Of a DNA stretch of 64,000 nt, positions 14,701 through 51,600 are shown piece after piece. This DNA comes from Chloroflexota bacterium (GTDB lineage: Bacteria > Chloroflexota > Dehalococcoidia > Bin125), in assembly GCA_009838735.1 (NCBI GenBank), contig VXQZ01000014.1, positions 1 through 64,000 of the forward strand, written 5' to 3'. The notes under the pieces were generated by a model. That model saw only the letters and a program-made list of their open reading frames with translations, did not search any database and was not told the origin of the DNA. Both the position numbers and the translations under genes were made by a program. Numbering within the stretch: the first letter of the stretch is position 1; each line of letters starts with the position of its first letter.

Positions 14701-14750
14701 TGCAGTGGGCGCTCAAATGTCAGGCGGTTCACGAAGCATCCCAGACCGCC

Positions 14751-23026: not shown

Positions 23027-23105
23027 GGCGCGTCTAGAGCTTGTTCACACGAATCGGGACTTGTGTCAGAGTGGCGGAACGGTCTGGCGGCCGGGCAAAT
23101 GGGAA

Positions 23106-27628: not shown

Positions 27629-27855
27629 AGAGACCTCCTTCGCCCATCTGCTTAACCACCTCGTGAGTGATCGCGTACGCTCCTTCTCAGCAGCCTGCTG
27701 GGGACAAACCAAGCATGTGTCGGTAGGGTCGCACTCGGACCTCCTGGCAACCCTTCGATGTTGTCCCTAGCTGAAGCGTATTGATGGCCTTCGGCATTCG
27801 CCTGCTGAACGTCAAGCAAAGGCCTTTTGGACCGGCGTTGGCTATGTGGGGACGA

Positions 27856-29616: not shown

Positions 29617-31191
29617 ATGCCAAAGTCCAAGACGCCAACACAAGCCCCAAACACCGCAACGACTGGATACGAAGCTCAGCTCTGGGAGATGGCCGACGCG
29701 CTGCGCGGCAGCATGGACGCAGCCGAGTACAAGCACGTCGTCCTCGGCCTGATTTTCCTAAAGTACATCTCCGACGCGTTCGAGGAGCAATACCAGCGAT
29801 TGCAGAGGGTTGATTTCGCGGATCCTGAGGATCCCGACGAGTACCGCGCCGAGAGCATCTTCTGGGTACCGCCCGAGGCTCGCTGGGGACACCTGCAGCA
29901 TCAGGCTCCGCAGCCCACGATTGGTCAACTCGTGGACGACGCGATGTCCGCCATTGAGCGCGACAATCCCTCTCTACGGGACATCTTGCCGAAGGACTAT
30001 TCGCGCCCTGCGCTCGACAAGCAGCGGCTCGGACAACTGATCAGCATGATCAGCAACATCCAGGTCGGCGATCAGGAATCCCGGTCCCGCGATGTCCTGG
30101 GGCGCGTCTACGAGTACTTCCTCTCCCGCTTCGCCAGTGCGGAGGGCAAGGGCGGCGGCGAGTTCTACACCCCGAACTCGGTCGTCCGATTACTGGTCGA
30201 AATGATCGAGCCGTATCGCGGCCGCGTCTACGATCCGTGCTGCGGCTCTTCGGGGATGTTCGTCCAGTCCGCCGAGTTCGTGAACGCTCATGCGACCGGG
30301 AACGGCAACGGCGGCAAGGCGAAGTCCGACATCTCCATCTACGGCCAGGAGTCGAACCACACGACCTGGCGGCTGGCCAAGATGAACCTCGCCATTCGCG
30401 GCATCGAGGGACAGATTGCGCATGGCGACAGCTTCCACAACGACCGGCATCCCGACCTCAAGGCCGACTTCATCCTCGCCAATCCGCCCTTCAACATCTC
30501 CGACTGGGGCGGCGATCGCCTGCGCGACGACCGGCGCTGGCAGTTCGGTGTTCCGCCGGCGGGCAACGCCAACTTCGCCTGGGTCCAACACATGGCGCAC
30601 CACTTGGCGCCCAACGGCGTCGCCGGCTTCGTGCTGGCCAACGGCTCCATGTCCTCCAATCAGTCCGGCGAGGGCGAGATTCGCAAGAACTTGATCCAGG
30701 CCGGATTGGTGGACTGCATGGTCGCGATGCCCGGTCAACTCTTCTACTCGACGCAGATTCCCGTCTGTCTCTGGTTCCTGGCGCGCAACCGCCGCGACGA
30801 GCTGCTCTTCATCGACGCCCGCAAGCTCGGCCGCATGACCGACCGCACGCATCGTGAGCTGACCGAGGACGACATTGCTCGTATCGCAGGCACGTACCAC
30901 GCCTGGCGCGATCGCGGCGACGCCTACGAGGACATTCCCGGTTTCTGCAAGGCCGCCAGCGTTGACGTGGTCGCCAGGCACGACTTTGTGCTCACGCCCG
31001 GCCGCTATGTCGGCGCGGAACCGCAGCCAGACGACGGCGAGCCGTTCGAAGAGAAAATGACGCGCTTCGCCGCGCAATGGCGCGAGCAGCAGGCGGAGGC
31101 GGCCCGTCTGGACGCGGAAATCGAGGCGAACCTGACCGCGTTGGGATTCGGTACCAATAGGGCCTCGTCTTCGTCTAGCCAATCCGTCTAG
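29617..31191 (+). CDS. hsdM: Type I restriction-modification methyltransferase subunit
   Basis: 524 aa; '[33 protein letters not shown]', '[11 protein letters not shown]', '[13 protein letters not shown]'. Confidence 0.95.
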
Positions 31192-31204
31192 ACTGAGAAG
31201 CACT

Positions 31205-31459
31205 ATGACTGACTGGCCCCTGCAAGACGCCAAAAACCGATTCAGCGCCGTGGTCGACGCCGCTCTCGCCGGCGATCCTCAGCGCGTCACCCGCCGCGGG
31301 CAACCCGCCGTCGTCGTGCTCGCTGTGGACGAGTACGAGCGACTCCGACTGATTGAACAGGCGAACGCGCCCTCGCTGGCCGAACTGCTGCTCGACATCC
31401 CCCAGGACGGCCAGGAGTTCGAACGACTAACCCTGCCGGTCCGCGAGCCCGACCTCTGA
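31205..31459 (+). CDS. Phd/YefM-family antitoxin
   Basis: 84 aa 'WPLQDAKNRFSAVVDAALAGDPQRVTRRGQPAVVVLAVDEYERL'. Confidence 0.88.
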   Translation: MTDWPLQDAKNRFSAVVDAALAGDPQRVTRRGQPAVVVLAVDEYERLRLIEQANAPSLAELLLDIPQDGQEFERLTLPVREPDL

Positions 31460-31884
31460 TGTTCCTGGTCGATACCGACGTGCTTTCCGCCTTGCGCCGC
31501 GGCGAACGACATCCCCTTGCGGCTCGCTGGCTCGCCGCCCAACGCACCTCCGATCTCTTCCTGAGCGTCATCACTATCGGAGAAATCGAACGCGGCATCG
31601 AGCGGGAACAGGGACGAGACGCTGCGTTCGCACGCGCGCTCTCGGACTGGCTCGACCGCGTGCTCGCCTGGTACGGAGACCGGATTCTCCCTGTCCACCT
31701 CCCGAGTGCGCGCCGCTGGGGGCGCCTCTCGGCCGCGCTCGGGCACGAGGGCGCCGACCTGATCATCGCCGCCACCGCGCTGGAACACGGCCTGACCGTC
31801 GTCACTCGCAACGTCCGGCACTTCGAACCCACCTCAGTGCCGGTGTTCAACCCCTTTGTCGACCGCGAGACGGCCGATGACTGA
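31459..31884 (+). CDS. PIN-domain (VapC/FitB-like) toxin
   Basis: 141 aa 'FLVDTDVLSALRRGERHP...ITIGEIERGIEREQ...GADLIIAATALEHGLTVVTRNVRHFE'. Confidence 0.9.
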   Translation: MFLVDTDVLSALRRGERHPLAARWLAAQRTSDLFLSVITIGEIERGIEREQGRDAAFARALSDWLDRVLAWYGDRILPVHLPSARRWGRLSAALGHEGADLIIAATALEHGLTVVTRNVRHFEPTSVPVFNPFVDRETADD

Positions 31885-33157
31885 CAACGGCTGGCGCGAA
31901 TACTCGATCGGAGAGATAGCTGATGTCGTCGGCGGCGGAACGCCCTCGACCAAGGGTCCGGAGAACTTCGACGGTGATATCCCGTGGCTAACCCCGAAAG
32001 ACCTCTCCGGTCCACATGATCGCTTCATTGAGCGCGGTGCACGCAATCTATCGCAGCAGGGCCTCGACAGTTCCTCGGCGAGGCTGCTCCCGGCAGGTTC
32101 CGTCCTCCTGTCGACACGCGCACCGATCGGATATGTCGCCTTGGCCAAGAACCCGATCTCGACCAACCAGGGATTTCGCAGCCTGAAGGTGAAGGATGGG
32201 TTCTCGGCTGAGTACCTGTACTACTGGCTGGCCGCCAACACTGACGAACTGGAACGTCACGCCTTCGGTACTACATTCCGCGAATTGTCGGGATCCTCGC
32301 TAAAGGGCATTCGACTCCATCTCCCACCCCTCGACGAGCAACGGCGCATCGCCCACATCCTCGGGACCCTCGACGACAAGATCGAACTCAACCGACGCAT
32401 GAGCGAGACCCTCGAAGCCATGGCCCAGGCCCTCTTCAAGTCCTGGTTCGTCGATTTCGACCCCGTCCGAGCCAAGGCCCAGGGCCGCCCAACCGGCATC
32501 CCATCGCACCTCGACGCACTCTTCCCCAACTCGTTCCAGGACTCGGAGGTGGGCGAGATTCCGTTTGGGTGGAAGGTCGGCACGTTGGGAGACATCTGCC
32601 GAAAACCCCAGTACGGCTACACACAGTCGGCGCAGACAGATCCAGTCGGACCCAAGTTCCTCCGAATCACTGACATCAATAAGCAGCCGTGGGTCGAGTG
32701 GGAGTCGGTACCCCACTGCGAAATCACGTCGGAGGACATCGAGAGGTATCGACTCCACCACGGCGACATCCTCATCGCGCGTATGGCGGATCCTGGCCAC
32801 GGCAGCATGGTGGAAGGCGAACCTGACGCTGTCTTCGCCTCGTACCTGATCCGGTTCCGACCGGTGCGCGAGCGCTACGCACGCTATCTCCAGTATTGGC
32901 TGCGCTCTGAGCGCTATTGGGAACTGGTTCACGGAAGACGAACAGGAACGACACGGGCCAATCTCAACGCCAAAGCGCTAAGCGGGTTCCCACTCCTCGT
33001 GCCTCCAGATTTCGTTCTGAGTGGATTCGGGGATCGAATTGACGGCCTACGTGCGCGCGTTGTGGCAAACATCTCGGATTCACACAGCCTGGCCAAACAG
33101 CGTGATGCCTTACTAACGCACCTGTTGCCGGACAGGTTGGGAGAACCTTACCAATGA
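31877..33157 (+). CDS. hsdS: Type I restriction-modification specificity subunit
   Basis: Start ATG 31877 overlapping PIN gene; 'WREYSIGEIADVVGGGTPSTKGPENFDGDIPWLTPKDL', 'LPPLDEQRRIAHILGTLDDKIELNRRMSETLEAMAQALFKSWFVDFDPV'. Confidence 0.93.
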   Translation: MTDNGWREYSIGEIADVVGGGTPSTKGPENFDGDIPWLTPKDLSGPHDRFIERGARNLSQQGLDSSSARLLPAGSVLLSTRAPIGYVALAKNPISTNQGFRSLKVKDGFSAEYLYYWLAANTDELERHAFGTTFRELSGSSLKGIRLHLPPLDEQRRIAHILGTLDDKIELNRRMSETLEAMAQALFKSWFVDFDPVRAKAQGRPTGIPSHLDALFPNSFQDSEVGEIPFGWKVGTLGDICRKPQYGYTQSAQTDPVGPKFLRITDINKQPWVEWESVPHCEITSEDIERYRLHHGDILIARMADPGHGSMVEGEPDAVFASYLIRFRPVRERYARYLQYWLRSERYWELVHGRRTGTTRANLNAKALSGFPLLVPPDFVLSGFGDRIDGLRARVVANISDSHSLAKQRDALLTHLLPDRLGEPYQ

Positions 33158-34149
33158 CCAACGGCTTCCAGTGTCGGATCTGGGAAACGCAGACAGGACG
33201 CCACCAGACAGATACCGATCGAGACACGACGATAGTTCTCGATTCTCCAAGGGCCGGCGGAGCGTACGAGATCACACTCGAAGCGCAAGCGCCCGTTCGG
33301 CGGTTGGATGACCTCGAAAAAGCACGGCTGACGACATGGCTTGTGGACCAGCGCCTGCATGGCGTTAGCGTGCCTTTGATCACCACCCAGAGCGTGGAAG
33401 TGGCTCGAAACGCGCCGCCTCTATCTGTTGCCAAGCGCGCAGACCGGCTCTTGCAACTGTTCGCGAAGAGGTCGAGTCGGGTCGGGGAACAGCTGTGGGT
33501 CGCAGCCATGGAGGCGAGTGATGAGAGGTCCGAGTTACCTGAGCCTCTCCGGAACTACTGGGAGGCTCAAGCTTGGTCTGAGTCACCGATTGCCGGAGAG
33601 ATTGACTATCTTGCCAACTATCTGAGTACCAGTGGATGGCTGGAGTATCCGCGTTCACGTGATTACCGCATCATAGTTGTGACAGTTGACGGATACAGCC
33701 GCCTGCAGTCCCTAGAGACGAAGGTTCTCACGAGGCAGGCCTTCGTGGCCATGTGGTTCCACAAGGAAACGAATCACGCGTTCGACCAAGGAATTCGACC
33801 TGCGATCGAGGAGGCCGGATACGCCGCCATGCGTATCGATCGCAAGGAGCACAACAACAAGATCGATGACGAGATCATCGCGGAGATACGCCGCTCGAGG
33901 TTTCTCGTTGCTGATTTTTCACACGGTGAGGCCGGAGCACGAGGCGGAGTCTACTACGAGGCAGGCTTCGCTCATGGGCTGAACATTTCCGTCATCTACA
34001 CCTGCCGCAAAGCGGACATCGACAAACTCCACTTCGACACCCGCCAGTACAACCACATCGTTTGGGAATCGCCCGAGGAACTGCGAGAGGCGCTGAAGAA
34101 CCGCATTCTCGCGGTCATCGGCGAGGGGCCCGGCGTCTCGGCGAGCTGA
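33154..34149 (+). CDS. Protein with C-terminal nucleoside 2-deoxyribosyltransferase/TIR-like fold domain; candidate defence effector
   Basis: 'AFVAMWFHKETNHAFDQGIRPAIEEAGYAAMRIDRKEHNNKIDDEIIAEIRRSRFLVADFSHGEAGARGGVYYEAGFAHGLNISVIYTCR'; overlaps hsdS stop. Confidence 0.6.
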   Translation: MTNGFQCRIWETQTGRHQTDTDRDTTIVLDSPRAGGAYEITLEAQAPVRRLDDLEKARLTTWLVDQRLHGVSVPLITTQSVEVARNAPPLSVAKRADRLLQLFAKRSSRVGEQLWVAAMEASDERSELPEPLRNYWEAQAWSESPIAGEIDYLANYLSTSGWLEYPRSRDYRIIVVTVDGYSRLQSLETKVLTRQAFVAMWFHKETNHAFDQGIRPAIEEAGYAAMRIDRKEHNNKIDDEIIAEIRRSRFLVADFSHGEAGARGGVYYEAGFAHGLNISVIYTCRKADIDKLHFDTRQYNHIVWESPEELREALKNRILAVIGEGPGVSAS

Positions 34150-34361
34150 ATCCAAGTGCGCAGGGAACGCTCCTGGAGTGGCCGCCGAACGGGAATCCGA
34201 CGGCGAATCAATAGGCCGCCCTCGAACTGGAATTCCTCTCACGTTTTCGAGGCGCTGGCGCATGGCCTCGACGACACGCGAGCCGGTGGATTCTCAATGT
34301 CCCGTCACTGCCGCTACGCTCAGCAACACGAAGGCTGGCGGAAGAAGGCTAGAACGGCCGT

Positions 34362-35084
34362 GTGCATGGCCGTGCAACGGAGGCTGAGAGGGTGAACGTC
34401 GAACTCGAGTCATTGAGTAGCTCGCGCGCATTTGAGGGCATCTACGACCTGCCTGAAGCGGCCAGGTACCTGAGCGCTTCCTGGCAAGGCCCTCCTTTGT
34501 TGGCGGTGAGTTCCTCGAAGATGATCGGTTGGATTCGAAAAGGGGTGGCCTCTAGAGATCTTGTGGAAATCGGCGGCCGAGAGCTGTTGATCGGATTCGA
34601 AGACCTGATCTCGATGCGCGTGATCGCCGCGTTGCGAGCCGCGAACGTGAGCTGGCCCGCCGTACGCGAGGCGGAGCGTTGGTTGCGCCGGGAAACGGGT
34701 TCCGAGCGACCCTTCGCGACCGAGACCATCTGGACCGGTCAGCGTCAGGTGTTCATCGAATGGAAGAGGCAACTCGTCTCAGCCAGCACTTCGGGCCAGG
34801 CCGCATTCGACTTCCTATTGGAGTTCCTGATTCCCGTCCACGGCTTGCTGTTCAACGAAGAGACCCACATGGCCAAGTCATGGGAGCCAAGCGGCGGCGT
34901 CGTGCTGGAGCCCGCCGTCCAGTTCGGGGCGCCCTGCATCAAGGGGACGAGGATTCCCACGCGCACAGTCGCCGGGATGATCGAAGCCGGCGACTCGCCG
35001 GAATACGTGGCGCGAGCGTTCGATCAGCCCATCGAAGCCATAGAGGAAGCCTGTGAGTGGGAACGACTCCTCCGAGCTGCCTAA
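34362..35084 (+). CDS. DUF433-domain (VapB-like) antitoxin with MerR-like N-terminal region
   Basis: 'PAVQFGAPCIKGTRIPTRTVAGMIEAGDSPEYVARAFDQPIEAIEEACEWE'; alternative GTG start 34392. Confidence 0.75.
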   Translation: MHGRATEAERVNVELESLSSSRAFEGIYDLPEAARYLSASWQGPPLLAVSSSKMIGWIRKGVASRDLVEIGGRELLIGFEDLISMRVIAALRAANVSWPAVREAERWLRRETGSERPFATETIWTGQRQVFIEWKRQLVSASTSGQAAFDFLLEFLIPVHGLLFNEETHMAKSWEPSGGVVLEPAVQFGAPCIKGTRIPTRTVAGMIEAGDSPEYVARAFDQPIEAIEEACEWERLLRAA

Positions 35085-35493
35085 CCCCCAGTTCCTGCTC
35101 GACGAATCACTCGACCCTAACGTCGCGAAGGCTCTTGAAGCGGTCGGCTACGACATTGTGGATGTCAAGACGGCGATGGATCCAGACAAGGAAGGGCGCC
35201 AGATCCTCGACGCCGAGATTATCGAGTGGTGCCGCATGCGCGGATCCGTCTGGATTCACGCCGACGATCGCGCCCGACGTGATCACAAGAAGCAGTTGCA
35301 GACGAGCGGGATCAGAACGCTGTTGGTCCGCCGACCGGGCGGTAGGATGACCGGTCGCGAGCAGCTTCGCATCCTGGCCTTCGTGATCCCGCAACTGCTC
35401 GATCGTTACAACCAGTCGCCACGGATACGTCACTACCGCACCGGCGCGGTCGATCCGCTCTCGAGACCATCGCTGCGCCCGGTTGAGATTTAG
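35053..35493 (+). CDS. DUF5615 PIN-like toxin
   Basis: 'FLLDESLDPNVAKALEAVGYDIVDVKTAMD...DAEIIEWCRMRGSVWIHADDRARRD'. Confidence 0.75.
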   Translation: MSGNDSSELPNPQFLLDESLDPNVAKALEAVGYDIVDVKTAMDPDKEGRQILDAEIIEWCRMRGSVWIHADDRARRDHKKQLQTSGIRTLLVRRPGGRMTGREQLRILAFVIPQLLDRYNQSPRIRHYRTGAVDPLSRPSLRPVEI

Positions 35494-35502
35494 GCTGCGG
35501 GC

Positions 35503-38500
35503 ATGACCACCATCAGCGAAGCCGATGTCGAGGAGATCGCCCTCGGTCACCTCCGCAATCTCGGCTGGGACACCGCCTACGGCCCCGAAATCGAGCGCGA
35601 CTACTCGCAGGTCTTCTTCGAGGATCGCCTCGGAGCCGCCCTCGCCGCTCTCAATCCCGATCTGCCCGACGACGCGTTGGAGAGTGCCTTCCGCAAGCTG
35701 ACCCAACCCGAGGGTTCCACCCTCGAGACTCGTAACCGCGCCTTGCACCGGATGCTCATCTGGGGCGTCGAGGTGGAGTATCGCGACGGAGATCGCATCC
35801 GTGGCGGCCAAGTCAAGGTCATCGACTTCGACGACCCAGCCGCTAACGACTATCTCGCCGTCAACCAGTTCACGGTCACCGAACGCGACCACAACCACCG
35901 ACCCGACATCGTCCTGTTCGTCAACGGCCTGCCACTTGGCGTGATCGAACTCAAGAATCCGACCGACGAAAACGCCACCGTCAAGAGCGCCTGGCAACAG
36001 CTGCAAACCTACAAGGCGCACATCCCTGCGCTCTTCACGTTCAACGAGCTGCTGATCGTCTCCGACGGTACGGAAGCCCGAATCGGCTCCCTCACCGCCG
36101 GCTGGGAGTGGTTCAAGCCCTGGCGCACGATCACTGGGGAACAACTGGCCGATTCGAACCTGCCCGAGATGCAGGTGCTGCTCGCCGGCGCCTGTCAGCA
36201 CTCGCGCCTCCTCACGCTCGTCCGAAACTTCGTGATCTTCGAGGACGACGGCGGAGCAATCGTCAAGAAACTGGCCAGTTATCACCAGTTCCACGCGGTC
36301 AGGATCGCCGTTCGTGAAACCCTCCGGGCGACCGAGTCGACGGTCCGGGAGCCGCCGGGCCGCTACGAGTCGGGCCGACGACGCGGCGGCGATCCGGGCG
36401 ACCGCAGAATCGGCGTCGTCTGGCACACGCAGGGTTCCGGCAAGAGCCTGACCATGGCCTGCTTTGCCGGCGCCATCATCCGCGAACCCGCGATGCATAA
36501 TCCGACCATTGTCGTGCTCACTGACCGCAACGATCTGGACGATCAGCTCTTCGGCACTTTCTCACGCTGTCAGGACTTGCTGCGCCAACCGCCCACGCAG
36601 GCGGAGACCCGGACCGACCTGCGCGACAAGCTCAATGTCCAGGCGGGCCGCGTCGTCTTCACCACGATTCAGAAGTTCTTCCCCGACGCCAAGGGTGATC
36701 AGCATCCGCTGCTCTCCAACCGGCACAACATCGTCGTGATCGCCGATGAAGCGCACCGCAGCCAGTACGACTTCCTCGACGGCTTCGCGCGGCACATGCG
36801 CGACGCGCTCCCGCGCGCCTCGTTCGTCGGCTTCACCGGAACGCCGATTGAGAGAGAAGACGCCAACACGCGCGCCGTCTTCGGCGACTACATCAGCATT
36901 TACGACATTCAGCGATCCGTCGCAGACGAGGCGACGGTCCCCATCTACTACGAAAGTCGCTTGGCAAAGCTCGCCCTCGATGAAGATGAGCGTCCGGACA
37001 TCGACCCTGACTTCGACGAGGCCACGGAAGGGGAGGAAGTCGAGCGAAAGGAACGCCTGAAGACCAAATGGGCGCAGCTCGAAGCGATCGTTGGGTCTGA
37101 GAAGCGAATCAAGCTCGTCGCTCAGGACATCGTCGATCACTTCGAGCAACGTCTCGAGGTCCTCGAAGGAAAGGCGATGACCGTCTGCATGAGCCGGCGC
37201 ATCTGCGTCGATCTCTACAGGGAATTGGTCCAGCTCCGGCCGGAATGGCATGACGATGCCGACGAAAAGGGGACGATCAAGGTCGTAATGACTGGCTCGG
37301 CCTCGGACCCACTCGATTGGCAGCCCCACATCCGCAACAAGCCCCGGCGCGAGGCCCTCGCCAACCGCTTCCGCGACGCCAACGATCCGCTTCAAGTCGT
37401 ATTGGTCCGCGACATGTGGCTGACGGGCTTCGACGCGCCAAGCCTGCACACGATGTACGTCGACAAGCCGATGCGCGGTCACGGTCTGATGCAGGCCATC
37501 GCCCGCGTCAACCGGGTGTTCAAGGACAAACCGGGCGGCCTCGTGGTCGACTACCTCGGGCTGGCTCACGAGCTCAAGCGGGCTCTCGCCACCTATACCG
37601 AGAGCGGCGGTCTCGGCAAGACGACCATCGACCAAGACGAAGCCGTGGCGGTGCTGCAGGAGAAGTACGAGGTCTGTCTCGGTCTCTTCCACGGCTTCGA
37701 TTGGTCCCAATGGGTGAACGGCACGCCGTCTGAGCGTCTGGCGCTTCTCCCACCCGCGCAGGAACACATCCTCAAGCAAGACGACGGCAAAGAGCGTTGT
37801 CTCGACGCCGTTAGGGCGCTGACCCAGGCATTCGCACTGGCCGTGCCGCACGAAGAAGCGCTGCGCATTCGCGACGATGTCGCCTTCTTCCAAGCTGTGC
37901 GCGCCTCGTTGGCTAAGCGAGCCGCAGGCGAGTCGCGCTCGGAGGAAGAACTGGAACTCGCCGTCCGCCAGATCATCTCCCGCGCCGTGGCTCCGGAGGG
38001 CGTGATCGACATCTTCGCGGCCGCAGGGCTGGACAAGCCTGACATATCTGTCCTCTCCGAGGAGTTCCTCGCTGAGGTCCAGAGCATGCCATACCGCAAT
38101 CTCGCCGTCGAGTTGCTGCAGAAACTCCTCAAAGGCGAAATCGCCACAAGGCGGCGCCAAAACGTCGTCAAGGCCCGCTCGTTCGCGGAGATGCTAGAGC
38201 GCTCGCTCCTGCGCTACCAGAACCGGGCGATTGAGGCAGCGCAAGTCATCGAGGAATTGATCGAACTTGCGCGACAGATGCGGGATGCGAGCGCCCGAGG
38301 CGAGGAGCTCGGTCTTTCAGATGACGAGTTGGCCTTCTACGACGCCCTCGAAACGAACGACAGCGCGGTCAAGGTCCTCGGTGACGACACCCTGAGAGAG
38401 ATCGCTCGAGAGTTGGTCGAAACGGTGCGTTCGAGCACGACAATCGATTGGACACTGAGGGAGGATGTTCGCGCACGACTCCGCGTTCTCGTGCGCCGCA

Positions 38501-38607
38501 TCCTTCGGAAGCATGGTTACCCGCCCGACAAGCAGGAACGAGCGACACGGACAGTCCTGGAGCAAGCCGAGGTCCTGTCTGAGATCTGGGCCTCTCCAGA
38601 TGGGTAG
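35503..38607 (+). CDS. hsdR: Type I restriction endonuclease R subunit
   Basis: 1034 aa; '[20 protein letters not shown]', '[39 protein letters not shown]', '[39 protein letters not shown]'. Confidence 0.95.
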
Positions 38608-38797
38608 TTGCAGGTCATTTCGCTCACCATTTGGATTCGCAATCAAAGGATACCTGCTCACTTCGTCTTCGAGTACGGGCCTTGAGGGGCTTCGGCTGAT
38701 GTGGCTCTCTGCGACCGTGGAACGTCACCTTCAGCTGATCCTTGGAGTGAAGACGTCTGACGGGTCGATCCTGAACACGCCGGTATGATTCATCAGA

Positions 38798-41700
38798 TTG
38801 CGAAATCGAGGGTCTGGTCTGGAGAATCTCGAAGTGCCCGTCAAGCAACCATTTCCCGACCTAGCGCTATTGCAAGAGGAATATCTGCTCGTTGAGGCGT
38901 GGAAAAAGACCGCACATCATCTGAGAACACACAACTGGTTTGCTGACACCCTAGCCATCGACCGAGCATCGGCCGAATTGCCCAGGTTCCTAGATGGCGT
39001 GGCGACTCGCCTCTCAGATCACGCTGGATACGAGACCCGACCATTGCGCTTAGTGCCCGCACCAAAGAGCCACACCTGGAGATATGACCCCAAGGCCGAG
39101 AGTTCTGGCTGGGAACCTGATCCCGGCGACGAAGGAAAGCCCCCTCGTCTCCGGCCGCTAGCGCACGCAAATCTAAGGGATCAAGTGGCTGCAACCGCGA
39201 TCTTGCTCTGCCTCGCTGATCGCGTCGAGACCCTTCAGTGTGACCCGAGTGGCTCGCCCAGTGATCCTGTGCACAGGCGCCGAGTCACGTCTTACGGCAA
39301 TAGGCTCTTCTGTGATGTGGAAGGTGCTGACCTCCTCTATCGATGGGGAACGAGTTCGCTTTACAGAGGATATTTCCAGGACTACCGGGCGTTCGTGGCG
39401 CGACCGGCTGCGGCAGCACAGTCCGTGGACGCAGGCGAGTCGCGGGTTGTCGTCGTGCAATCGGATCTAAGAAACTTCTACGACCGTGTGCGCCCAGAGT
39501 TGCTCACTGAGAGGCTCCGTGATCTCCAGGATCCTGACGACGATGCTGACTTCTTCCTGTTAGCTGAGAAGGTGTTGAAGTGGCGATGGGACGAGCGAGA
39601 CCAAGCCAGCGTCCAGGCCTATGCAGACCAAGAAGAGATTCCAGACTTCGAAAGGGTCGCATTGCCACAAGGACTCGCTGCGGCCGGCTTCTTCTCAAAT
39701 GTGGTGCTGTTGCCGTTCGACGCCGAGCTCCGCAGCCTGGTGTCTAAGGAATTCTTCGTTGGAGCTCACCTGGTAGACGTTGCTCGCTACGTGGACGATC
39801 TCAGAATCGTGCTTAAGGTTGACAATCGGCAGTTAGAGATGAAGGACATTGAAGAAGCGACGAAGATCAAGCTCGATGAACTGCTCCAATCGGATTTCGG
39901 TCTATCGGCTGCCAGAGAGAAGACTCGAGCATCCGAGTTTGGAATGCAGAGTGATCGCCCCATCGTCCAGCAAAGCAAGCGTATGACCCGCATCCAGAAG
40001 GCGGTCTCGGGCGGATTCGACGTCGCTGGCGGCGAAGCAATCCTTGAAGCAATTCGTGGCCTGATGCGATCTCAACTCATCCATCCAGAGGAGCATGAGG
40101 AGGACACCGAGTGGGCGTTCACGCCGGTCGCCGATGTCCCCGACGACACAGTTGCCCGGTTTGGAGCTGCTCGATGGAAACGGGTCTATCGCTGGCTGCG
40201 TCCTCTATTGGAAGAGGAAGACTCTTACCCTGACGACTCGCTAGACGACAGCATTGATGACTCAGTACCGACATTCGATGAACTGGAGAAAACACGAAGC
40301 GATCTGGACAACGAGGCCGAAGTCTTTGCTGCGGACCTAATCAAACGTTGGATTGCAGATCCCTCGAATGTCCGGCTACTGCGCATCGCATTCGACATCT
40401 GGCCATCTTCCTCTTCGCTGCAGGAGGTCCTCAACCTCTTGAAGCCCCTCGCCTTAGGAACAGGAGAAGATGAGGGCCCGCGCCTGGTCGCTCAGTACTG
40501 CCTCTCGGAGCTCTTTCGGGCAGGTGCCACAGAGACTGGCTTCGTTTGCGATCCAGACGAAATCAGGCTGAACATCGAAGGGTATCGGTCAACTCTCCAA
40601 GAGACCGCGGAGCAAGTGATTGAGCACGATGCGAGTGCTCTTCCCTGGTATCTCCAACAACAGGCAATGCTCTTTCTTGCGACTCGCGGATCTGTTCCCC
40701 ACCTGATCGCCAACACCGATCCCGAACTCCGGCATTACGCAGCGCTCCTGAGGTTCCTCGACGATCCATCTACGGCATCATCCGCAACCGACTTCGCCAC
40801 CTTCTCCGTGCTGGCCCGGCACTGTTTCGCTCACGAAGGCGCTGCACCATTGATTGACCCTCACATCACAAGGGCGCGACTCGCTCGGCTCGTTCATGTC
40901 GACCCTACCTTTGCCATTGAGGTGATCGAATCCCACCGGGATTTCCGCTGGTTGCTGCCTCCCTACATCGCACGAGACCTGTGCATGACAGAGGGGCTAT
41001 CTGAAGACCCGCACTCCCTCGCTCGGTTGGTATCTGATGGGCAAAACCCATTTCGAGACGAGATGGCATTGCTGCAGTTCGCGATCAAGGTTCTACACAT
41101 CCTTCGTAGAGGCCAACGGAGTGTCATTACGCCGGCCGATCTGCATATTGACCTCTCGTACCGCAGCCTTAGCGACAAATGGGCAGTGCGGGAGGGCGAC
41201 TTCAGAGTTTTGCTGCGGCATCGGCGATATCTGACCACCTCCATATATTCACCACCAGACTGGTGCCTGGATTCGGAACGATGGCGATTCCAACTCGGAT
41301 ATCTGCTGCGCTTCGTCCTGACCGAGAGACCAGACTTCACCTCGTCAGTACGTCGATCCTCAGGACAACAGACCAGTGGAGAATCTTACCGCTCCGTTGG
41401 CATGCCTTGGAAGATGAGGCGCTATGGATTCTTCCACGGCCATGAGGCGTTCGGCGATCGCTGGCTGCCAATTACGGAGTGGACTACGAAGCTGTTGATT
41501 GAACTTCTTGCCTGGCCAGGGGCACGAACACCGGGTTTTGAGTGGGTAGATGACGGAATTGGTGCAGCGCTGAACGCGATTCAGGAGCGAATAGACAAGC
41601 TATGGAGACTGCAGGGAGCCAGCAAGTCGGAGCTGTTGCTCAAGATTGAAGCAGAGCCTCCTGTCACGATCGCGCAAAATCGACCCTTGCGGGCAGCGGT

Positions 41701-42577
41701 GGTTCAGACTGTGCTGCCACAGGAAAGTTGGTTCCAGCGAGGCCCCGAAGACCTGTGCCCTGAGCATCGAAGGGCGATGCGGCGCCACCTTGCGACGGCG
41801 CTATCGGTTGTTCGCTCGTCATTGCGTCTGCGCAGGACCCATGAGGATGGAGCCGGCAGCATCGATCTTCTGATCATGCCTGAGCTGTCCGTGCATGTCC
41901 ACGATCTTGGCATCCTCAAGCAGTTTGCGATCTCGCACAAGGCAATGGTGTTGGCGGGTCTTGTTTATCACAAAGCAAGAGAGGATGACTGCCAGCCGTT
42001 TGTGAACTCGGCAGTCTGGATGGTTCCAGAGAAGGTTCGCGAAGGAGGGCGGCAGATTCGGATCATCGAGCAAGGCAAACACCACCTTGCGCACTCCGAA
42101 CAAGGCCTCAATGTTCGCCCGTTTCGGAACGGTCAATGGCTTGTCGGGTTCCCGTGGTCGCCGGAGTCAGACAAAGAGCGCCTTTGGCTGACTGCGTCGG
42201 TCTGCTACGACGCTACCGACATCGGGCTTGCTGCTGACCTACGTGGGAAATCTGATGTCTATGTGATTCCGGCTCTGAATAAGGACACCACGACGTTCGA
42301 CCAGATGGCGCTGGCACTTCACTATCACATGTTCCAGATGGTCATCGTGGCCAACAGCGGAAAATACGGTGGAAGTAATGCTTACATCCCTTATCGAAAG
42401 AACTACGAGCGTCAGATCTTCCATTTCCACGGGCAACCGCAGGCCGCAGTCGCGTTCGTTGAGATTTCTGATGTCAGCGAGTTCTTGAATCGGGTCGAGA
42501 CTGCGAAGGATGTCGAAGTCAGCACCACAGGCGAGAGCAAGCCGCAGTTCAAGTTTCCGCCGGCTGGTCTGTGTTGA
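38798..42577 (+). CDS. Defence-associated reverse transcriptase with C-terminal nitrilase domain (DRT1/UG1-like architecture)
   Basis: 1259 aa; RT 'VVVVQSDLRNFYDRV', 'ALPQGLAAAGFFSNVVLLPFD', 'VARYVDDLRIVL'; nitrilase E/K/C: 'LLIMPELSV', 'EQGKHHLA', 'TASVCYDATD'. Alternative GTG start 38834. Confidence 0.85.
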   Translation: MRNRGSGLENLEVPVKQPFPDLALLQEEYLLVEAWKKTAHHLRTHNWFADTLAIDRASAELPRFLDGVATRLSDHAGYETRPLRLVPAPKSHTWRYDPKAESSGWEPDPGDEGKPPRLRPLAHANLRDQVAATAILLCLADRVETLQCDPSGSPSDPVHRRRVTSYGNRLFCDVEGADLLYRWGTSSLYRGYFQDYRAFVARPAAAAQSVDAGESRVVVVQSDLRNFYDRVRPELLTERLRDLQDPDDDADFFLLAEKVLKWRWDERDQASVQAYADQEEIPDFERVALPQGLAAAGFFSNVVLLPFDAELRSLVSKEFFVGAHLVDVARYVDDLRIVLKVDNRQLEMKDIEEATKIKLDELLQSDFGLSAAREKTRASEFGMQSDRPIVQQSKRMTRIQKAVSGGFDVAGGEAILEAIRGLMRSQLIHPEEHEEDTEWAFTPVADVPDDTVARFGAARWKRVYRWLRPLLEEEDSYPDDSLDDSIDDSVPTFDELEKTRSDLDNEAEVFAADLIKRWIADPSNVRLLRIAFDIWPSSSSLQEVLNLLKPLALGTGEDEGPRLVAQYCLSELFRAGATETGFVCDPDEIRLNIEGYRSTLQETAEQVIEHDASALPWYLQQQAMLFLATRGSVPHLIANTDPELRHYAALLRFLDDPSTASSATDFATFSVLARHCFAHEGAAPLIDPHITRARLARLVHVDPTFAIEVIESHRDFRWLLPPYIARDLCMTEGLSEDPHSLARLVSDGQNPFRDEMALLQFAIKVLHILRRGQRSVITPADLHIDLSYRSLSDKWAVREGDFRVLLRHRRYLTTSIYSPPDWCLDSERWRFQLGYLLRFVLTERPDFTSSVRRSSGQQTSGESYRSVGMPWKMRRYGFFHGHEAFGDRWLPITEWTTKLLIELLAWPGARTPGFEWVDDGIGAALNAIQERIDKLWRLQGASKSELLLKIEAEPPVTIAQNRPLRAAVVQTVLPQESWFQRGPEDLCPEHRRAMRRHLATALSVVRSSLRLRRTHEDGAGSIDLLIMPELSVHVHDLGILKQFAISHKAMVLAGLVYHKAREDDCQPFVNSAVWMVPEKVREGGRQIRIIEQGKHHLAHSEQGLNVRPFRNGQWLVGFPWSPESDKERLWLTASVCYDATDIGLAADLRGKSDVYVIPALNKDTTTFDQMALALHYHMFQMVIVANSGKYGGSNAYIPYRKNYERQIFHFHGQPQAAVAFVEISDVSEFLNRVETAKDVEVSTTGESKPQFKFPPAGLC

Positions 42578-42639
42578 CTGTGGTCCTGTGGCTACCGGCC
42601 ACTCACCTGGTGAAATGGCTGTGGCGATGAGTGGTCAAA

Positions 42640-43074
42640 ACACCCTAGGTGTCGACAGTGAGCGGAGAGAGCTTGTCACCCTCACCGCTCTTCTGGCCCG
42701 GCAACCTGCACGTGTCACGCTCATTCCTGCGACATCGCGCTCCTCGATCACGATGAAGCTGGCACAGTCGGTCAGGCTCCAGCGTTGGTCCGGGCGAGCG
42801 GCGTAGCCTTCGAGAGCGGCTTGAAACTGAGCGTCGATCTTCGGGATGATCTCAACTTGCGGACTCTCTGCCAGCCGCTCCACTAGTCGCGTGGCGGCCA
42901 GTCTGGCACGATCTCCACTGCCCGCTTGAGATGCGAGGGTCTCCACCAACGCCATCTGAGTCGTGACAATGTCGAAATCGTTCAGACGAGCCGATGCCGC
43001 GCGCACGAGTGCAGTTGATCCCTGCTGTCGATCAGCGCGATCCAATAGCCCGAGGCGGCGAACAACGCCGCCAT
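42640..43074 (-). pseudogene. Frameshifted PIN-domain toxin
   Basis: Start MAALFAASGYWIALIDSRDQLH... then shift to ALVRAASARLNDFDIVTTQMALVETLASQ...RPDQRWSLTDCASFIVIEERD. Confidence 0.65.
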
Positions 43075-43334
43075 CAGTCGTCCGGATGCTTGGGGTGGCC
43101 GTACAGATGGTGTTTCTTGTGTCGAACGAAATCCGTCGGGCGGTTCTCCCAGCGTTCCGGTGGATGTTCGCTGTGCAGTTCTTCCGCGAGGTCCAACAGC
43201 CAGGAGCCGCTCGATTCTTGGTCGGGCGATTCCTCTGCGACTTCGAGCAACACGTTGCAGCCGTCGGGGAGGCGAAGCGGATCGAGCAGTTCGAGATTGC
43301 CGTCGACGTAGCGGGCGCGGATGCGATCCGGCAT
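43074..43334 (-). CDS. DUF104/AF2212-like antitoxin
   Basis: 86 aa 'RIRARYVDGNLELLDPLRLPDGCNVLLEV'; TGATG overlap with PIN remnant. Confidence 0.6.
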   Translation of the reverse strand: MPDRIRARYVDGNLELLDPLRLPDGCNVLLEVAEESPDQESSGSWLLDLAEELHSEHPPERWENRPTDFVRHKKHHLYGHPKHPDD

Positions 43335-43663: not shown

Positions 43664-46600
43664 CTACTCGTCGAGACGCCGCCTCAGTTCCTCCTCCACT
43701 CCGTAGAAGTTGGCCTTGATCATCTGGTCGATGATGTTGCGAACGCGGACCTCGAGAGGCCAGTCATCTGTCGTCTCCAGCAGGCGAAACAGCAGTTTTG
43801 CGAGCAACTGGGCGACCATGGCCTCCATGTACTGAATCGAAGCCGCCTTCGGTCCGTATTCCGCGAGCGCTCGCTCGGCTATATCGCAGATCTCAACGGG
43901 AGGCGGCTGCGAGGATTTGCCGAGCCGGACAAGCAGAGCGGAGATGCGAGATTCGCTGAAGGTTCGTGAGCGAGCGAACGTGCTGAGCAGGACACTATGT
44001 CCGGCGATTTGTTCGGGGCCGAGGGAATCCCAGCATGCGGCGGCGGACCGTCGCACGACCTTGCTTTGGTCCTCGAACATCTCGGCCAGGCGGGAGGCAC
44101 ACCAGCTTCCAGCTTGTTCGTGGAGGAGGTTCGCAGCGTAGATGTCTGCCGCTCCCGCCCTGATGTGCTCGCCCAGCTGCAGCACCTTGGCTTCATCCTC
44201 GCGAGCTGCAGAGTTGTGAGGAGAAAGGGCGGACAGCACGATCCAACGAGCGCCAACTCGTTGGGCGGAAACTTCGCCTGAGTCCAACAGTTGGTTCAGG
44301 GTTGACCTCATATCCAGATAGCTTCGTTGAGTTGCGCGTCTGATGAAGTGTTCGACGTAGAACGACCCGACAATGGGTTCGGCTCCGTTGATCAGTCGCC
44401 GGAAGCACTGCAGCGCTTCATCCGGATTGGCATTCAGGATGGCCAGGAGGCAATTCGCAGCCGTTGAGCGCACTGCCAGAACCGGGTCGACAGCGAGCTG
44501 ATGCACGGTGTCGCGGAACTGGTTCCACCGGTTCACGTCGGCGTACAGCAGCTTCGCGATCGCATAAGCGGCCGAGCCGCGAGCCGTGTTGATCGCTTGC
44601 GTCACCGGCGCCATCGAATCTTCCGGGCCTAGCCAATCGTCCTTGTCCGGGTCTGGATCGGTCATGGCTATGTCGTTCAGCCAGGCCATGAGATCGTTCG
44701 GCAGAGGCTCTTCGGCGAGCGCGCCAAACGCGTGCGCAATCTGCCCACCGGGCATGGGCACGCCGAGCTCCTTAATCCTGCCCAAGACCCGGAGAGCTTG
44801 CGCCAGGGAACCGGAACGCGGCGAACCATCTTCGCTCTTAGTCAAACCGCGCAAGACGGCTTCGAAGTACTCGGGCGGGTCTGAGGAGTTCAGGTGGTCG
44901 GTCAACGCAGCGAACCGGGCAGGGGCTTGCACGGCCGCACCTTCAAGCGTCTGGCTCAGTTCGTGCACGCCGCCGACGAACTGGTTGCCGTGGAACGTCT
45001 CCCCGGTACGCGCGACGTCGCGCATCTTCTCAAGCCAGTGTTCATCGCTAATCTGTAGCGCCTCATCATCGGAGATCGGGGAGACAGCCCAGCCGAAACC
45101 ATCGTCGTCAAGGTTCTGGGGAGCGCCTCGCCGCTGCTTCTCAGGGAACCGAGCCTCAAGTTCCTGAATGCGTTGCTGGGTGGACTCCTCGACTCGGTTC
45201 TCCGGCAGGCACCAGAGCAGGGCAAGCTGGATTTCCGCATGCTTCTGTTCCGGCCGTTCCCGCCGCGGCTCGAACGCGAGAATCGCTTGCTCCAGGGTCT
45301 TGAGCGACTCATCCGCGCACCGTTCCGCTGCGGCCGCCACCCCAGTCCGACTCACGCCGACGAACAAGTCACCGCCGCTCGATCCCCAGCTATAGCCGAG
45401 GTCGAGCCGGCGGCCAGGATCGTCCAGAATGAACCTGACGATCACCTCGGAGAACGAGTCGGGATTGGCGCTCATCGCATCGAGCCAGGCGATGCTCATC
45501 CAGCGCGTCCAAACGTCGTGCTCCCGACTGACCGCCATCACGATCGACTTGAGGGCTTCGGGTTCCTCGACCGCGAGTTGGCGCATCGCCGTCGCCAGCA
45601 GCGCATAAGGGCCTCGTTCCGGATGATCGCCCCCCCGCGGGGCGCCGACGATGTTCATCGGCGCGACTCGCTCAATGCTGACGATCCGGGGCAACATCTC
45701 CTGCACAAACGCTCGCGGCGCAGCAGAGGCGCACTCGCTCGTAGTCCAATCGTCCAGGCCAAGTCGGAGATCGAGCCGTTCTGTGTTGGCGACCGCCGCC
45801 TTCGGCTCGGCAACCACTCGGTCGAACCAGGCCCCAATCGCCTGCGGCGCAAACAGAGGCGCCTCTTCCTTCACTGCGAACAGGATGTCGGACAGCAGCC
45901 GAGCGAGCCGTGCGAAATCCTCGGAGCGATCGAGAGGTTCCGTGTGAATCAGGCCGAGTAGCCACGCTTGCTTGGTGGGAGAGCCGTAGCCGTCGCTCCA
46001 CCGGGCAACGTTCCACAACCTTAGGCGCCACTCGGGCGTGTCATCCCGGTGTTCGTTCAGAAGCTCGATCACAGCGTTTGTCCGCTCGGTCAGCAGCGCG
46101 GGCGTTTGCAGCAGGACCACGGTCCGGTCGGCTTCTTCCTGCGATCCGGCGAGCCAGCGATCCCAGCGCTGCATCTCTCGCAGCAGATCGAACCAGGGCG
46201 TGGAGTTACGGGCCACTTCCCAGACGTGATTGCCCAGCTCCTCGGCCTGGCGCTCAACGATCTCCCACTCTTCCGCCGTCGGATCCGCGATCGATCTGAG
46301 CCAATCCAACACTCGCTTCTTGATGTGGAAACGTACTTCGGAGTCTGCCAGCAGCCGCTCCAGCGTGAGCAGGTAGCGGCCGCGATCTGCTCGTCGGCGC
46401 CGCAGAAAGGCGAGCACGCCGAGCACTTGGCGGCGGCGGAAGTAGGCCTGGCGATCCTCCCTGAGCCAGTCCAGCAGATCTCGCTGCTCTGTCGCGAACG
46501 AGCGCGCGAACGCGTAGTCGAAGAACGACTCGTGGAAGAAGCCGACCTCACCGTCCTGTATGAACAGCACGGACTCCGAAGCCATGGCCGCCGCTGCCGC

Positions 46601-48226
46601 CGGGAAGGCGTCGAGCAGTTCGTAGTCCGGCGCGGCGTACGCCTCGCGATCGCTGAGCGCGTGGGCAAGCCGGGACGCGGCCGCGGTCCAGTCGCCGCCG
46701 CTTACCAGCGGATGACTCGTGACGCGCTTCGCCTTCTCCCGCCAGTAGGCGTCGAAGAGGTCGTCGACCGTCGCAAACCCCAGTTCTCGAGATTGCGCAG
46801 CTTCGACGAACAGGTAGAGGTGTAAAGGTACGCGCAGAAGCTCCTTCTGGAAGTCGGTGAGACCTCCAGGTCCGATCGCGGCTGTCTGAAGCGCGCGCCG
46901 GACATCGTCCAGCGTCAACACGGTCACTTCGAGGGTGCGGGCAACCGCAGATGGCCCCTCGGTGATCCACTTGAAGGATGTCTCCTCTTCGAGTTCAAAC
47001 GACCGACAGATGAACAAGATCCGTAGGTTCGGATGCTCGGCGGCCTGATCCACGATCTCGCGCAGGACGCGCTGGCCCCGTTCGTTCCGCTCCGTCCCAC
47101 CGGCCAACCCGTCGAGCTGATCGATGCAGAGAACGGCGCGTTCTCCCTGCGCCGCCTGTACCAGTTCCGCCACCGGAGAGTCCGACAAGCCAAGGCGCTG
47201 GCCGACTTCGCCGGACGAGAACGCGCCTCGTAAGTCGCTTGCCGGGACTGTAAGGGCGACCACGCCCCGTTCGTCAAGCTCTCGGACTATCTGCGCCATG
47301 ACGCAGCTCTTGCCCGCCCCCGCCCCGCCGCTGAGCAGCAGCGACTCATCCCGATCAATGAGCGCCTCCGTGATCGCAACCGACTGCGAACGCGGAATCG
47401 CTGCTCCGTTGATCAGGGCGTGCTCGATCCGGCCGAGGTAGGCGTGAGTCAGAGTCAGGATCCGTTCGATTGAGCGATCACGGGAGGGCAACTGTCGTCG
47501 CACATACCCATACCGCTCCAGCTCGTGCCGGACCTGTTCGGCCCGAACGGCCTGTCCTAACCGGCTCCATGCGAACTCTTCAAGCAGCGTCCGCACGGCA
47601 TGCGGATCTGCCAGTTCACCGTCAGCTCGACCGATCCGCTCAGCGATCAGTCGTTCCACGTCTTGCACGAGCAAACGGTGCCCAATGGTCACAAACTCGC
47701 AGTCTTTCAGCTTCGTGTAGGCCTCTTGTTCGCTCTGGCCGAGCGACGCCGCGCTGGCGAAAAAGGCGTCGTGCTGTCGATTCGAGAGCCGGCTGAAGAA
47801 CTGCTCCAAGCTGCTGGAAGACCTTGCCCGCTCTGCCGCTTCGCGCAAATGGGCCGCGGCGTCCTGGCTGATGAACACCGCGCGGCTCGCACCTGGACCC
47901 TGCAGATGGCCGAAGAGATCTCCCAGGATCGACCTCCCGGTCGACGGGGAGGTTCTCGTCAGCTCGGAGGCGGTCCAGCGAGCAGCCGAATTCGGGGCTT
48001 GGCGTTTGACCGAGTGAAACTCGATTTCCCCGGCTGGCATGACGCGAGAGAACTCGACGCCGAGGCCGTCTGGCCCGGGTTCTTCCAGCCGCACCTCAAC
48101 CACTTCACCAGCGAGAAGATCCAGCATGGTCTGGACCGTCCAGGCCCGCTCGTACAGGTCGGCTACCTTCGCGGCCGGACCGCCCGGCAGACTCGGCAGG
48201 GCGTCGTGGGGCTGCTGCTCGGGCAT
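43664..48226 (-). CDS. Avs-like STAND P-loop NTPase with N-terminal restriction-endonuclease-like region and C-terminal helical repeats
   Basis: ORF 43664..48295; N-term 'YERAWTVQTMLDLL...GVEFSRVMPAGEIEFHSVKRQ'; Walker A 'LLLSGGAGAGKSCVMAQIV', Walker B 'AVLCIDQLDGL'; long HEAT/TPR-like C-terminus. Confidence 0.7.
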   Translation of the reverse strand: MPEQQPHDALPSLPGGPAAKVADLYERAWTVQTMLDLLAGEVVEVRLEEPGPDGLGVEFSRVMPAGEIEFHSVKRQAPNSAARWTASELTRTSPSTGRSILGDLFGHLQGPGASRAVFISQDAAAHLREAAERARSSSSLEQFFSRLSNRQHDAFFASAASLGQSEQEAYTKLKDCEFVTIGHRLLVQDVERLIAERIGRADGELADPHAVRTLLEEFAWSRLGQAVRAEQVRHELERYGYVRRQLPSRDRSIERILTLTHAYLGRIEHALINGAAIPRSQSVAITEALIDRDESLLLSGGAGAGKSCVMAQIVRELDERGVVALTVPASDLRGAFSSGEVGQRLGLSDSPVAELVQAAQGERAVLCIDQLDGLAGGTERNERGQRVLREIVDQAAEHPNLRILFICRSFELEEETSFKWITEGPSAVARTLEVTVLTLDDVRRALQTAAIGPGGLTDFQKELLRVPLHLYLFVEAAQSRELGFATVDDLFDAYWREKAKRVTSHPLVSGGDWTAAASRLAHALSDREAYAAPDYELLDAFPAAAAAMASESVLFIQDGEVGFFHESFFDYAFARSFATEQRDLLDWLREDRQAYFRRRQVLGVLAFLRRRRADRGRYLLTLERLLADSEVRFHIKKRVLDWLRSIADPTAEEWEIVERQAEELGNHVWEVARNSTPWFDLLREMQRWDRWLAGSQEEADRTVVLLQTPALLTERTNAVIELLNEHRDDTPEWRLRLWNVARWSDGYGSPTKQAWLLGLIHTEPLDRSEDFARLARLLSDILFAVKEEAPLFAPQAIGAWFDRVVAEPKAAVANTERLDLRLGLDDWTTSECASAAPRAFVQEMLPRIVSIERVAPMNIVGAPRGGDHPERGPYALLATAMRQLAVEEPEALKSIVMAVSREHDVWTRWMSIAWLDAMSANPDSFSEVIVRFILDDPGRRLDLGYSWGSSGGDLFVGVSRTGVAAAAERCADESLKTLEQAILAFEPRRERPEQKHAEIQLALLWCLPENRVEESTQQRIQELEARFPEKQRRGAPQNLDDDGFGWAVSPISDDEALQISDEHWLEKMRDVARTGETFHGNQFVGGVHELSQTLEGAAVQAPARFAALTDHLNSSDPPEYFEAVLRGLTKSEDGSPRSGSLAQALRVLGRIKELGVPMPGGQIAHAFGALAEEPLPNDLMAWLNDIAMTDPDPDKDDWLGPEDSMAPVTQAINTARGSAAYAIAKLLYADVNRWNQFRDTVHQLAVDPVLAVRSTAANCLLAILNANPDEALQCFRRLINGAEPIVGSFYVEHFIRRATQRSYLDMRSTLNQLLDSGEVSAQRVGARWIVLSALSPHNSAAREDEAKVLQLGEHIRAGAADIYAANLLHEQAGSWCASRLAEMFEDQSKVVRRSAAACWDSLGPEQIAGHSVLLSTFARSRTFSESRISALLVRLGKSSQPPPVEICDIAERALAEYGPKAASIQYMEAMVAQLLAKLLFRLLETTDDWPLEVRVRNIIDQMIKANFYGVEEELRRRLDE

Positions 48227-48623
48227 ACTTGACAGGTTACCAACGGCCCGGGGGCTGGCAATCAGCTGGTAGGGGCGCTCAAGTGCGCGTTCCACCTAAG
48301 GGAACTCGAACCCGAGAACCCGAAAAGGGCACCAAGCCGGAGCTGCGTCGCTAGAGCGCCACCTCCCAGACGAACGTTCGCAGTACAGTCCCTCTTGGCC
48401 TACCACCCGTGACAAAATCGAGAACTTTCTCGTTGACCATCGCGCTTGTCATTTGAGGAACGGGGCCGTCGCGTCGCCATCGTTGGCTCAGCCGACAATC
48501 AGTGGCAACATTTCCTGCTTCAGGAGCACCACCGCAAAGCGGAGTGAGCAGCCCGCAGGCTTCGATCAGATCAACGGCAGGCGGACTCGGCGCGTTGCCA
48601 ATCGAACTCCGAGACACCAAGTC

Positions 48624-51600
48624 TCAGGCCAGTTCGTTGGAGTGAATGTCCAATTGGGTTCTGACACGACTCAGCACGAATTCCCGTTCGAAGGGACTCA
48701 GAGCCAGCTTGCTATCCGCCTCCAGGGAGTCTTTGAGTCGGGTTAGCGTGCCCAAGGTCGTACGGCCTTGGCAGAGCACATCCATCGACAACTCTAGGAT
48801 CATTCCCAACTGAGAGAGCGGGACTCTGTCGAAGACCCGTGAGATTAGCCCGGTCACGACCGCGACAGCAGTTCGTGGATCGCTGTCTGGACCGCGCAGG
48901 GTTCCGAGCATCGCACGCGTCTCTTCGTTGCTGATGTACCCATTCGCCTTGAGGCGCCTCAGAATGTCATCGGCTCCAAGGCGTAAGAACGTGTAGTGCA
49001 TCGAAGCGAGCTGTCCCACCGCCGCGGAGTACTCTTCGGCCTCGAGCGCTCCGCTTCTGAGGAGTTCCTCCAAGACCCCCTGGCTGTTCACGACCTCCTT
49101 TCCCGTCGCCCGAACGAGATTCGCGAGAGCAACATCGTCAGACACCATTACTAGGGGTGTCCCATCTAACTTCATATCGGAGCAGATTGCGCCGACTCCA
49201 GAAATCGTCAAGGCCTCAACAGCAAACTCAGCATCTCCAAGGTCAAGCACTTGGTAGGCGGGAACGCGTTCTAGCGATTCCACGAACTCCAACACGCTCT
49301 GTGCGAAATCTCGCCACGCCGCCAGTCCCTCGTCGTGACGCTCTGAGAACACGTATCGGCCATCGTCTGACTTGCCGAGATGGCCGCTAGCCCGCATCGT
49401 CTTCGCCATGGTGTTAGTCGCCTGGAACTCATCGACCACGTGTTGCGGAACAGCCACACACCCGAAGCGAGCCTTGAGCTGGTCACCGATTCCCAGCTCG
49501 TGGACCGTCAGAACGGCCGGCAAGTCCAAAACAATACCCTGAGTCCCTGGCAACAGCGCCTGTGCCAGATCAGCTTCACGCGGGTCTCCCATCGCGAACC
49601 TTATGGGAACCGAGCCGTCCACTGTGCAGGCTCTCCAGACTTCCACAGGGGAAGGGCCAATGAGGGAAGAGAACATGGCAAACGGAAATCCTCCTTCGCG
49701 ATATCTCTCCTCGACCGATCGGACGAATTGGGCTCGTCGCTCAGTGGCTTGGATCAGCTTCGTGATATCCCCTTCATCTGCGACGATTCGAGACAAGCTC
49801 GTGTTGTCTGGAAACCGCGTCGAGAATTCGGCAATCGTCTCTTGAAATGCCCGGACGAACTTGTTTTGGATGGCGACCACCCTGTACGTGAGTTCTTCCA
49901 GGTCGTCTCGCATCTCGATCTTGTCGCCGACTGCAGACCCTATCAATCGCCTTGCGAATTTATGATTGGCCGGCAGTTCGCTGGTGTCGTACCGCTCATC
50001 TTCGTCATCAAGGATTGACCACCACGTCTCTTCTCCCGTCAGAGTGTCTCGCAAGCGGACGGCGCAGCCCGGCGCTACGAGTTCCGGTTCCGCCATTTCG
50101 TGATCGTGGGCGAGAAAGATGGCGAAGTATCCGCTGTGCAAGTCGGGATCATCGATTCCATGGCGTCGTGCGGCGTACGCGTCATTGAGGGCGCCATCCA
50201 CCCCGAGCATGACCTTCAACTTCGCCAACTCCAGTAGAAGACGAGGATCGCCCTGCAAGTCCGACGGTTCAAGGCTTTCGACGGTCTTTCTCGCCGCATC
50301 TCTCAACCCAGCGCGAAACTGAAGGAGGGCAAGTCGCACTCGATCAGACTCGTTCACGTCGGGCCGGGCGCAGATCTGCTCACGCAGAGCAACAGCTGGT
50401 GGAAGGTCTCCTACGATTTCGAGGATCTGCGCCTCCGTATCGATCACGTGTTTGGGAACTTCGACACGAGTCTTCCTAATCTGTCGAGACCACTCCAGTG
50501 CCTCGCGAAGGCGTCTCGCCTCGGCGAGACATCCGAGCAGGTCGACCGCTAGGAGATGGAGTGGCGAATCGTCCACCACCTTCGCATAGGCGTCAGCAGC
50601 ATCACTGAATCGCTTCATCTCCCAGTAGAAGTTGCCTAACCGGAACAGAATCTCAGGTCTCCCTGAGTCATCGGAAAATGACAGGGCCTTCTGGAGGTCC
50701 TCCTCTGCCCTGACGAAGTCTCTCAAAGATCGCCTCCGCGTGGCTGACACCGCAAGGAGCCATGGATCCTCGGGTCGCTTCAGCAGCGACTCCTCAAGCG
50801 ATCGCCAGGCCGGGTCCTCATCATCCGTTTCCATGTCAACTTGGCATACGAGCTCCGCCTTCCAGAGATCGTCTGGCCCTGGATTCTCAAACGTGAACTT
50901 GCCCCTGATCAGTTTCTTGGCAGCGAGATGATCTCCCAAACGGAGGTAAACCTCCGCCAGGGGAGCGATGACATCTTCTGACCCTATGTCCGTCCACACT
51001 TGCTCAAGCGAGTCCCGCGCCTCGTCGTATCGACCGGCCATCATTAGTACTAATCCGCGCACGTGCAGTGGCGAAGGGTCGCGCGGATCTGCTCGAACCG
51101 CATCGTCGAGGTCGCTCAGCGCCGCATCAATGTGTCCCTGAAGAGCCTTAGCGAATCCGCGGACCACGAGGGCACTGCTGAGCTGGGAGTCTAGGTCTGT
51201 AGAGTCGAGTAGCTCGATCGCTCTGCTCGCCGCTTCCTCGCACTGTTTCAACCGCTCGTGTGCCGTGTTCTCGGCAGCCCCGCCCTTCGCCAACGAGGCT
51301 TGCGCCTCGGTGAACAAGCATTGGCTCAGCATCAAATGGGCCCCAATGTCTTTGGGATCATCCTCGATCAATGTCTGACAGAGCTGCGCCGCTTCTTCGA
51401 AGCGACCTTGCTTTGCGCGCACATCGGCCAGAACCAGTCCACTGGAACGATCGGCGGTTACCCAGGCATGACTGGTGATGAACTCTCGAAGCTGCTCGCG
51501 CTCCTCAGCTTCCCAAAACGACTCGATGATGATTGCTGCGGCGTGGCCGTTCCGAGGCTCCAACTCCAAGGCTCTATGTGCGAGGTCCAACGCGCGCTCA

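Follow-up and report, generated by a model that had tools for sequence, protein, structure and literature searches.

The window, a 64,000-nucleotide stretch from a Chloroflexota genome, carries on its forward strand a type I restriction-modification (R-M) operon (hsdM, hsdS and hsdR, 29617-38607, assigned with PADLOC and Pfam) that is followed on the same strand, about 190-226 bases past the end of hsdR, by drt1, the gene of interest here. An uninterrupted frame of 1259 codons runs from a TTG at 38798 to 42577, and all residue numbers given below are counted from this codon. The true start is probably the GTG at 38834 (1247 amino acids, gene extent 38834-42577) rather than the TTG, because homologues begin near residue 13-20 in the alignment of relatives and a GGAG at 38821-38824 lies nine bases 5' of the GTG. 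The frame encodes a reverse transcriptase (RT) domain (39149-39952), a helical repeat region (40295-41587) that aligns with residues 473 onward of 9YFD, the DRT1 filament in the PDB, a nitrilase-superfamily domain (41690-42502, from alignment and predicted fold) and a C-terminal lid (42551-42568). The motifs listed in the initial annotation are all found in frame, namely YVDD (residues 331-334), SDLRNFYDRV (222-231), MPELS with E1029, EQGKHH with K1094 and SVCYD with C1136, as is the helical region that it had placed between the RT and the nitrilase. An acidic low-complexity stretch that follows the RT domain, EEEDSYPDDSLDDSIDDSVP at 40211-40273, was found in none of the relatives and is modeled with low confidence.

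Other genes surround drt1 on both sides. PADLOC and Pfam place two toxin-antitoxin-like pairs (PhdYeFM/PIN and DUF433/DUF5615) and a TIR/deoxyribosyltransferase-like gene inside the R-M operon, and to the left of this region, at 26744-27702, lies a dispersed multi-copy element with several more copies in the genome and many in congeners. Downstream of drt1 there are candidate defence genes on the opposite strand. The stretch that adjoins it (42635-43334) comprises an AF2212-like small protein gene of antitoxin type (43074-43334, a weak Pfam match) and a downstream frame; a large AAA ATPase protein at 43664-48295 partially matches the candidate defence family PDC-M54A, and a TPR protein with a GreA/GreB C-terminal and a PIN domain at 48624-52427 has the TPR-GreAB-C-PIN architecture (Pfam PF20698), with no PADLOC match.

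In order to place the protein we compared it with profile libraries, with PDB sequences and with genomes, plasmids and viral contigs. The PADLOC Drt1a model PDLC03745 matches residues 20-1258 at 1170 bits (E = 0 in a profile search of the whole genome) and a second Drt1a model gives 404 bits, while Pfam yields only a weak RVT_1 match and no NCBIfam model scores above its cut-off. A phmmer search of the PDB returns 9YFD as the only sequence relative (E = 2e-117), also found with the nitrilase part alone (E = 2e-48). Scores of this size lie well outside what chance would produce. The nearest relatives are 41-47% identical to the window protein and those of the 9YFD type ∼27-29%. It is the sole DRT1 and the sole RVT_1 match in its genome; DRT1 is rare in the phylum, with two carriers among 400 genomes, its own counted, and none among 60 closer relatives. 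A single-protein search of phage and IMG/VR sequences gave no match, and an alignment-based search recovered three distant IMG/VR loci with DRT1. From these searches we assembled an alignment of the window protein with 15 relatives (16 loci in all) plus 9YFD, whose row was taken from search alignments and in which D324/D325, S402 and C1116 sit where the published study places them (PMC13275509). The full-length Drt1a match, the 9YFD match and this alignment bear out the proposal of the initial annotation that the gene encodes a DRT1/UG1-like RT-nitrilase fusion. Judged by its sequence, the gene encodes a full-length DRT1 (UG1, class 3) with intact RT and nitrilase active sites.

The RT catalytic residues D223 (39464-39466) and D333/D334 of YVDD (39794-39799) do not vary among the 16 loci, 9YFD and the UG5 outgroup. 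The predicted RT fold resembles those of group II-type, DRT2, DRT9, AbiA and Abi-P2 RTs. With a mean pLDDT of 75-76 the RT and nitrilase models are both moderately confident, and the fold library, with entries up to April 2026, does not contain 9YFD, so that the window protein and 9YFD are compared through their sequences only. The priming loop, QSKRMTRIQKAVSGGFD at 39971-40021, contains S404 (40007-40009), which the alignment pairs with S402 of 9YFD. The column is Ser in 16/16 loci and in 9YFD, and Val in UG5, in an alignment with a two-residue gap. Counting from the IQ on the left, S402 would fall on G406 of the window protein; counting ungapped from the right it falls on S404, as can be seen from SSIPERNGLD in 9YFD, SGPVDRDTLD in another member of the alignment (locus L014) and SGGFDVAGGE in the window. 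Proteins of the 9YFD type thus carry two additional residues directly before the priming serine as compared with the window type, and S404 is the likely counterpart of S402, an equivalence that requires the two-residue gap beside the serine.

Conservation is equally complete in the nitrilase domain, where E1029 (41882-41884), K1094 (42077-42079), E1101 (42098-42100) and C1136 (42203-42205; C1116 of 9YFD) are invariant in 16/16 loci, in 9YFD and in UG5. The catalytic residues of both domains, loss of which on alignment had been named beforehand as evidence against the assignment, are therefore retained. A second Glu seven residues after the Lys is the spacing of the nitrilase superfamily, and E1101 lies seven residues past K1094. 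The predicted fold of this part matches aliphatic amidases and nitrilases, the aliphatic amidases at E = 5e-10. The lid, KFPPAG in the window protein and KTQPAG in the closest relatives of 9YFD, aligns K1252 and A1256 with K1219 and A1223 of 9YFD, and among loci with an intact C terminus the Lys is kept in 15/15 and the Ala in 14/15. A UG5-nitrilase from the same phylum (locus L040, genome G176) ends in the lid-like KPTPAG, and the lid may therefore be a shared feature of class 3 nitrilase fusions, as this one UG5 sequence would indicate. Several further loci deserve mention. In a Geobacteraceae MAG (1450-5049) the DRT1 frame stops early, after YGGSN, so that the nitrilase C terminus and lid are absent. 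In the Sphingopyxis macrogoltabida plasmids NZ_CP009431.1 and NZ_CP013346.1 DRT1 is apparently split: 12613-15000 encodes residues 13-818, and the nitrilase part lies apart from it in the same record, at 22929-23843. A 662-codon protein of another locus (L043, 172-2160, reverse strand) has a nitrilase region resembling those of UG5 and DRT1.

The RT-nitrilase architecture by itself is shared with UG5-nitrilases, which have the same RT aspartates, the same E-K-E-C residues and the similar tail described above, and we have asked if the window protein could be of this type and merely resemble DRT1. The PADLOC scores, 126 bits for the UG5-nitrilase model (PDLC03780) and 1170 for Drt1a, rule out such a placement at the family level; moreover, the UG5 protein of the same phylum carries Val at the position of the priming serine, and its branch in the tree is very long, so that we give this reading hardly any credence. 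That the protein works together with the type I R-M system is very improbable as well. The short same-strand distance from hsdR speaks for such a partnership, as does one lineage member, from a Bacteroidetes MAG, in which DRT1 also adjoins type I R-M genes; in no other searched relative is hsdR beside DRT1. In addition, a congeneric genome (G218) contains the complete R-M operon, most of which is 86-91% identical at the DNA level, but the homology ends at 38591, at the end of hsdR, with no DRT1 behind. Since the same operon occurs without DRT1 in a congener, DRT1 was gained or lost on its own, and by this comparison it is cargo separate from the operon. Of the link to an R-M island proposed in the initial annotation the adjacency to hsdR is confirmed; the link is one of co-location. 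The gap between the two genes also leaves room for a template RNA, and the initial annotation had suggested that 38608-38797 be examined for a structured ncRNA. We searched the slightly longer stretch 38608-38833, 226 bases upstream of drt1, and found no match in Rfam at E ≤ 1 and no folding better than that of shuffled sequences (z = -0.53 and +1.21 for the forward and reverse strands); the upstream regions of nine lineage members show no detectable similarity, a weak comparison given how divergent these sequences are. The published DRT1 works without template RNA (PMC13275509), and the lack of a structured RNA upstream fits a template-free enzyme. An ncRNA-templated, class 2-like DRT is on these grounds a most unlikely reading.

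A subtler alternative is that the window protein shares the chemistry of the 9YFD protein but is regulated in a different manner, possibly responding to another trigger. In a full-length tree, which included a wrong outgroup sequence with a very long branch, plasmid loci of Vibrio, Pseudoalteromonas and Photobacterium together with three IMG/VR contigs group with 9YFD (99/100), to the exclusion of the window protein and its relatives, which come from Acidobacteriota, Thermodesulfobacteriota, Bacteroidota and Alphaproteobacteria. A tree of the RT alone with UG5 as outgroup does not resolve this split; its outgroup branch is too long to root anything. Homologues of drt1b, the gene of a membrane partner that is optional in the family, adjoin five of the six DRT1 loci that fall with 9YFD and none of the nine in the window's branch; downstream of the window gene we find neither a drt1b homologue nor a hydrophobic small ORF. 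A loop of the QSRKMxRIQxAISGGFD type before the serine is confined to window-side loci, and the stretch before the lid is longer and variable in this branch. There is no window-branch member among PDB structures, and to our knowledge none has been studied experimentally. The absence of drt1b and the distinct loop motif suggest that this branch has the same chemistry and may be controlled in another way. Yet the catalytic, priming and lid residues are all identical between the branches, and in the published work drt1b adjoins only ∼18% of drt1 genes, so that most drt1 operons lack it, and the DRT1 that was studied defends without it (PMC13275509). A separate regulatory mode is thus doubtful, and the broader proposal, that DRT1 comprises two old branches of common chemistry, with that of the window lacking drt1b, having its own priming loop and a longer lid linker and sensing phage differently, is to be taken as speculative.

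By far the most probable reading, in our view, is that the window encodes a complete and probably functional DRT1 abortive-infection protein that works by the published mechanism. The initial annotation had described this mechanism as poorly understood, a statement that has been overtaken by the work of Neville et al. (2026, PMC13275509), who studied DRT1 by cryo-EM and functional experiments. In that work DRT1 was found to synthesize semirandom A-rich DNA, template-free, on its own serine S402; the DNA adducts drive tetramers into dormant filaments, and the C terminus is swapped so that it shuts the nitrilase pocket. The D324N/D325N, S402A and C1116A mutations each abolish defence, K1219A and A1223F abolish or strongly reduce it, both lid residues are reported to be essential, and T4 escapes through mutations in dda. 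Every published functional residue is retained in the window protein in the alignment with 15 relatives and 9YFD, and it is from this conservation, together with the published mechanism, that we infer the following. The RT domain would add dNTPs in an untemplated manner onto its own S404, the resulting DNA adducts would bring the protein together via its nitrilase domains, first as tetramers and later as dormant filaments, and the KFPPAG tail of one protomer would close the nitrilase pocket of another in the filament. Phage infection would release the filament, with the nitrilase then acting on an essential metabolite to cause cell death.

The family is already known and the window protein is a well-preserved further member of it, from a branch without a solved structure. 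That the priming serine, the nitrilase Cys and the C-terminal lid are kept in divergent DRT1s of several phyla supports the published mechanism as a general one, and the protein, as an intact member of the structure-less branch, can be used to address questions of trigger and nitrilase substrate. With respect to known systems, its likeness to PADLOC Drt1a (PDLC03745) extends over the full length, with nothing notable beyond sequence divergence to set it apart. The domain order of the 9YFD protein is the same throughout, and its RT aspartates, priming serine, nitrilase E-K-E-C residues and K...PAG lid all align with those of the window protein; the two differ in the priming loop, GTSS in 9YFD and SGG here, and in that the 9YFD lineage mostly has drt1b whereas that of the window is without it. 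UG5-nitrilases have the RT and nitrilase domains, the catalytic residues and a similar tail, but lack the serine in the priming column. Finally, for the class 1 Abi RTs that are protein-primed (AbiK, AbiA, Abi-P2), which the window protein resembles in its predicted RT fold in the cases of AbiA and Abi-P2, untemplated protein-primed DNA synthesis is the expected shared feature with DRT1, and the difference lies in the nitrilase effector, which the Abi RTs do not have.
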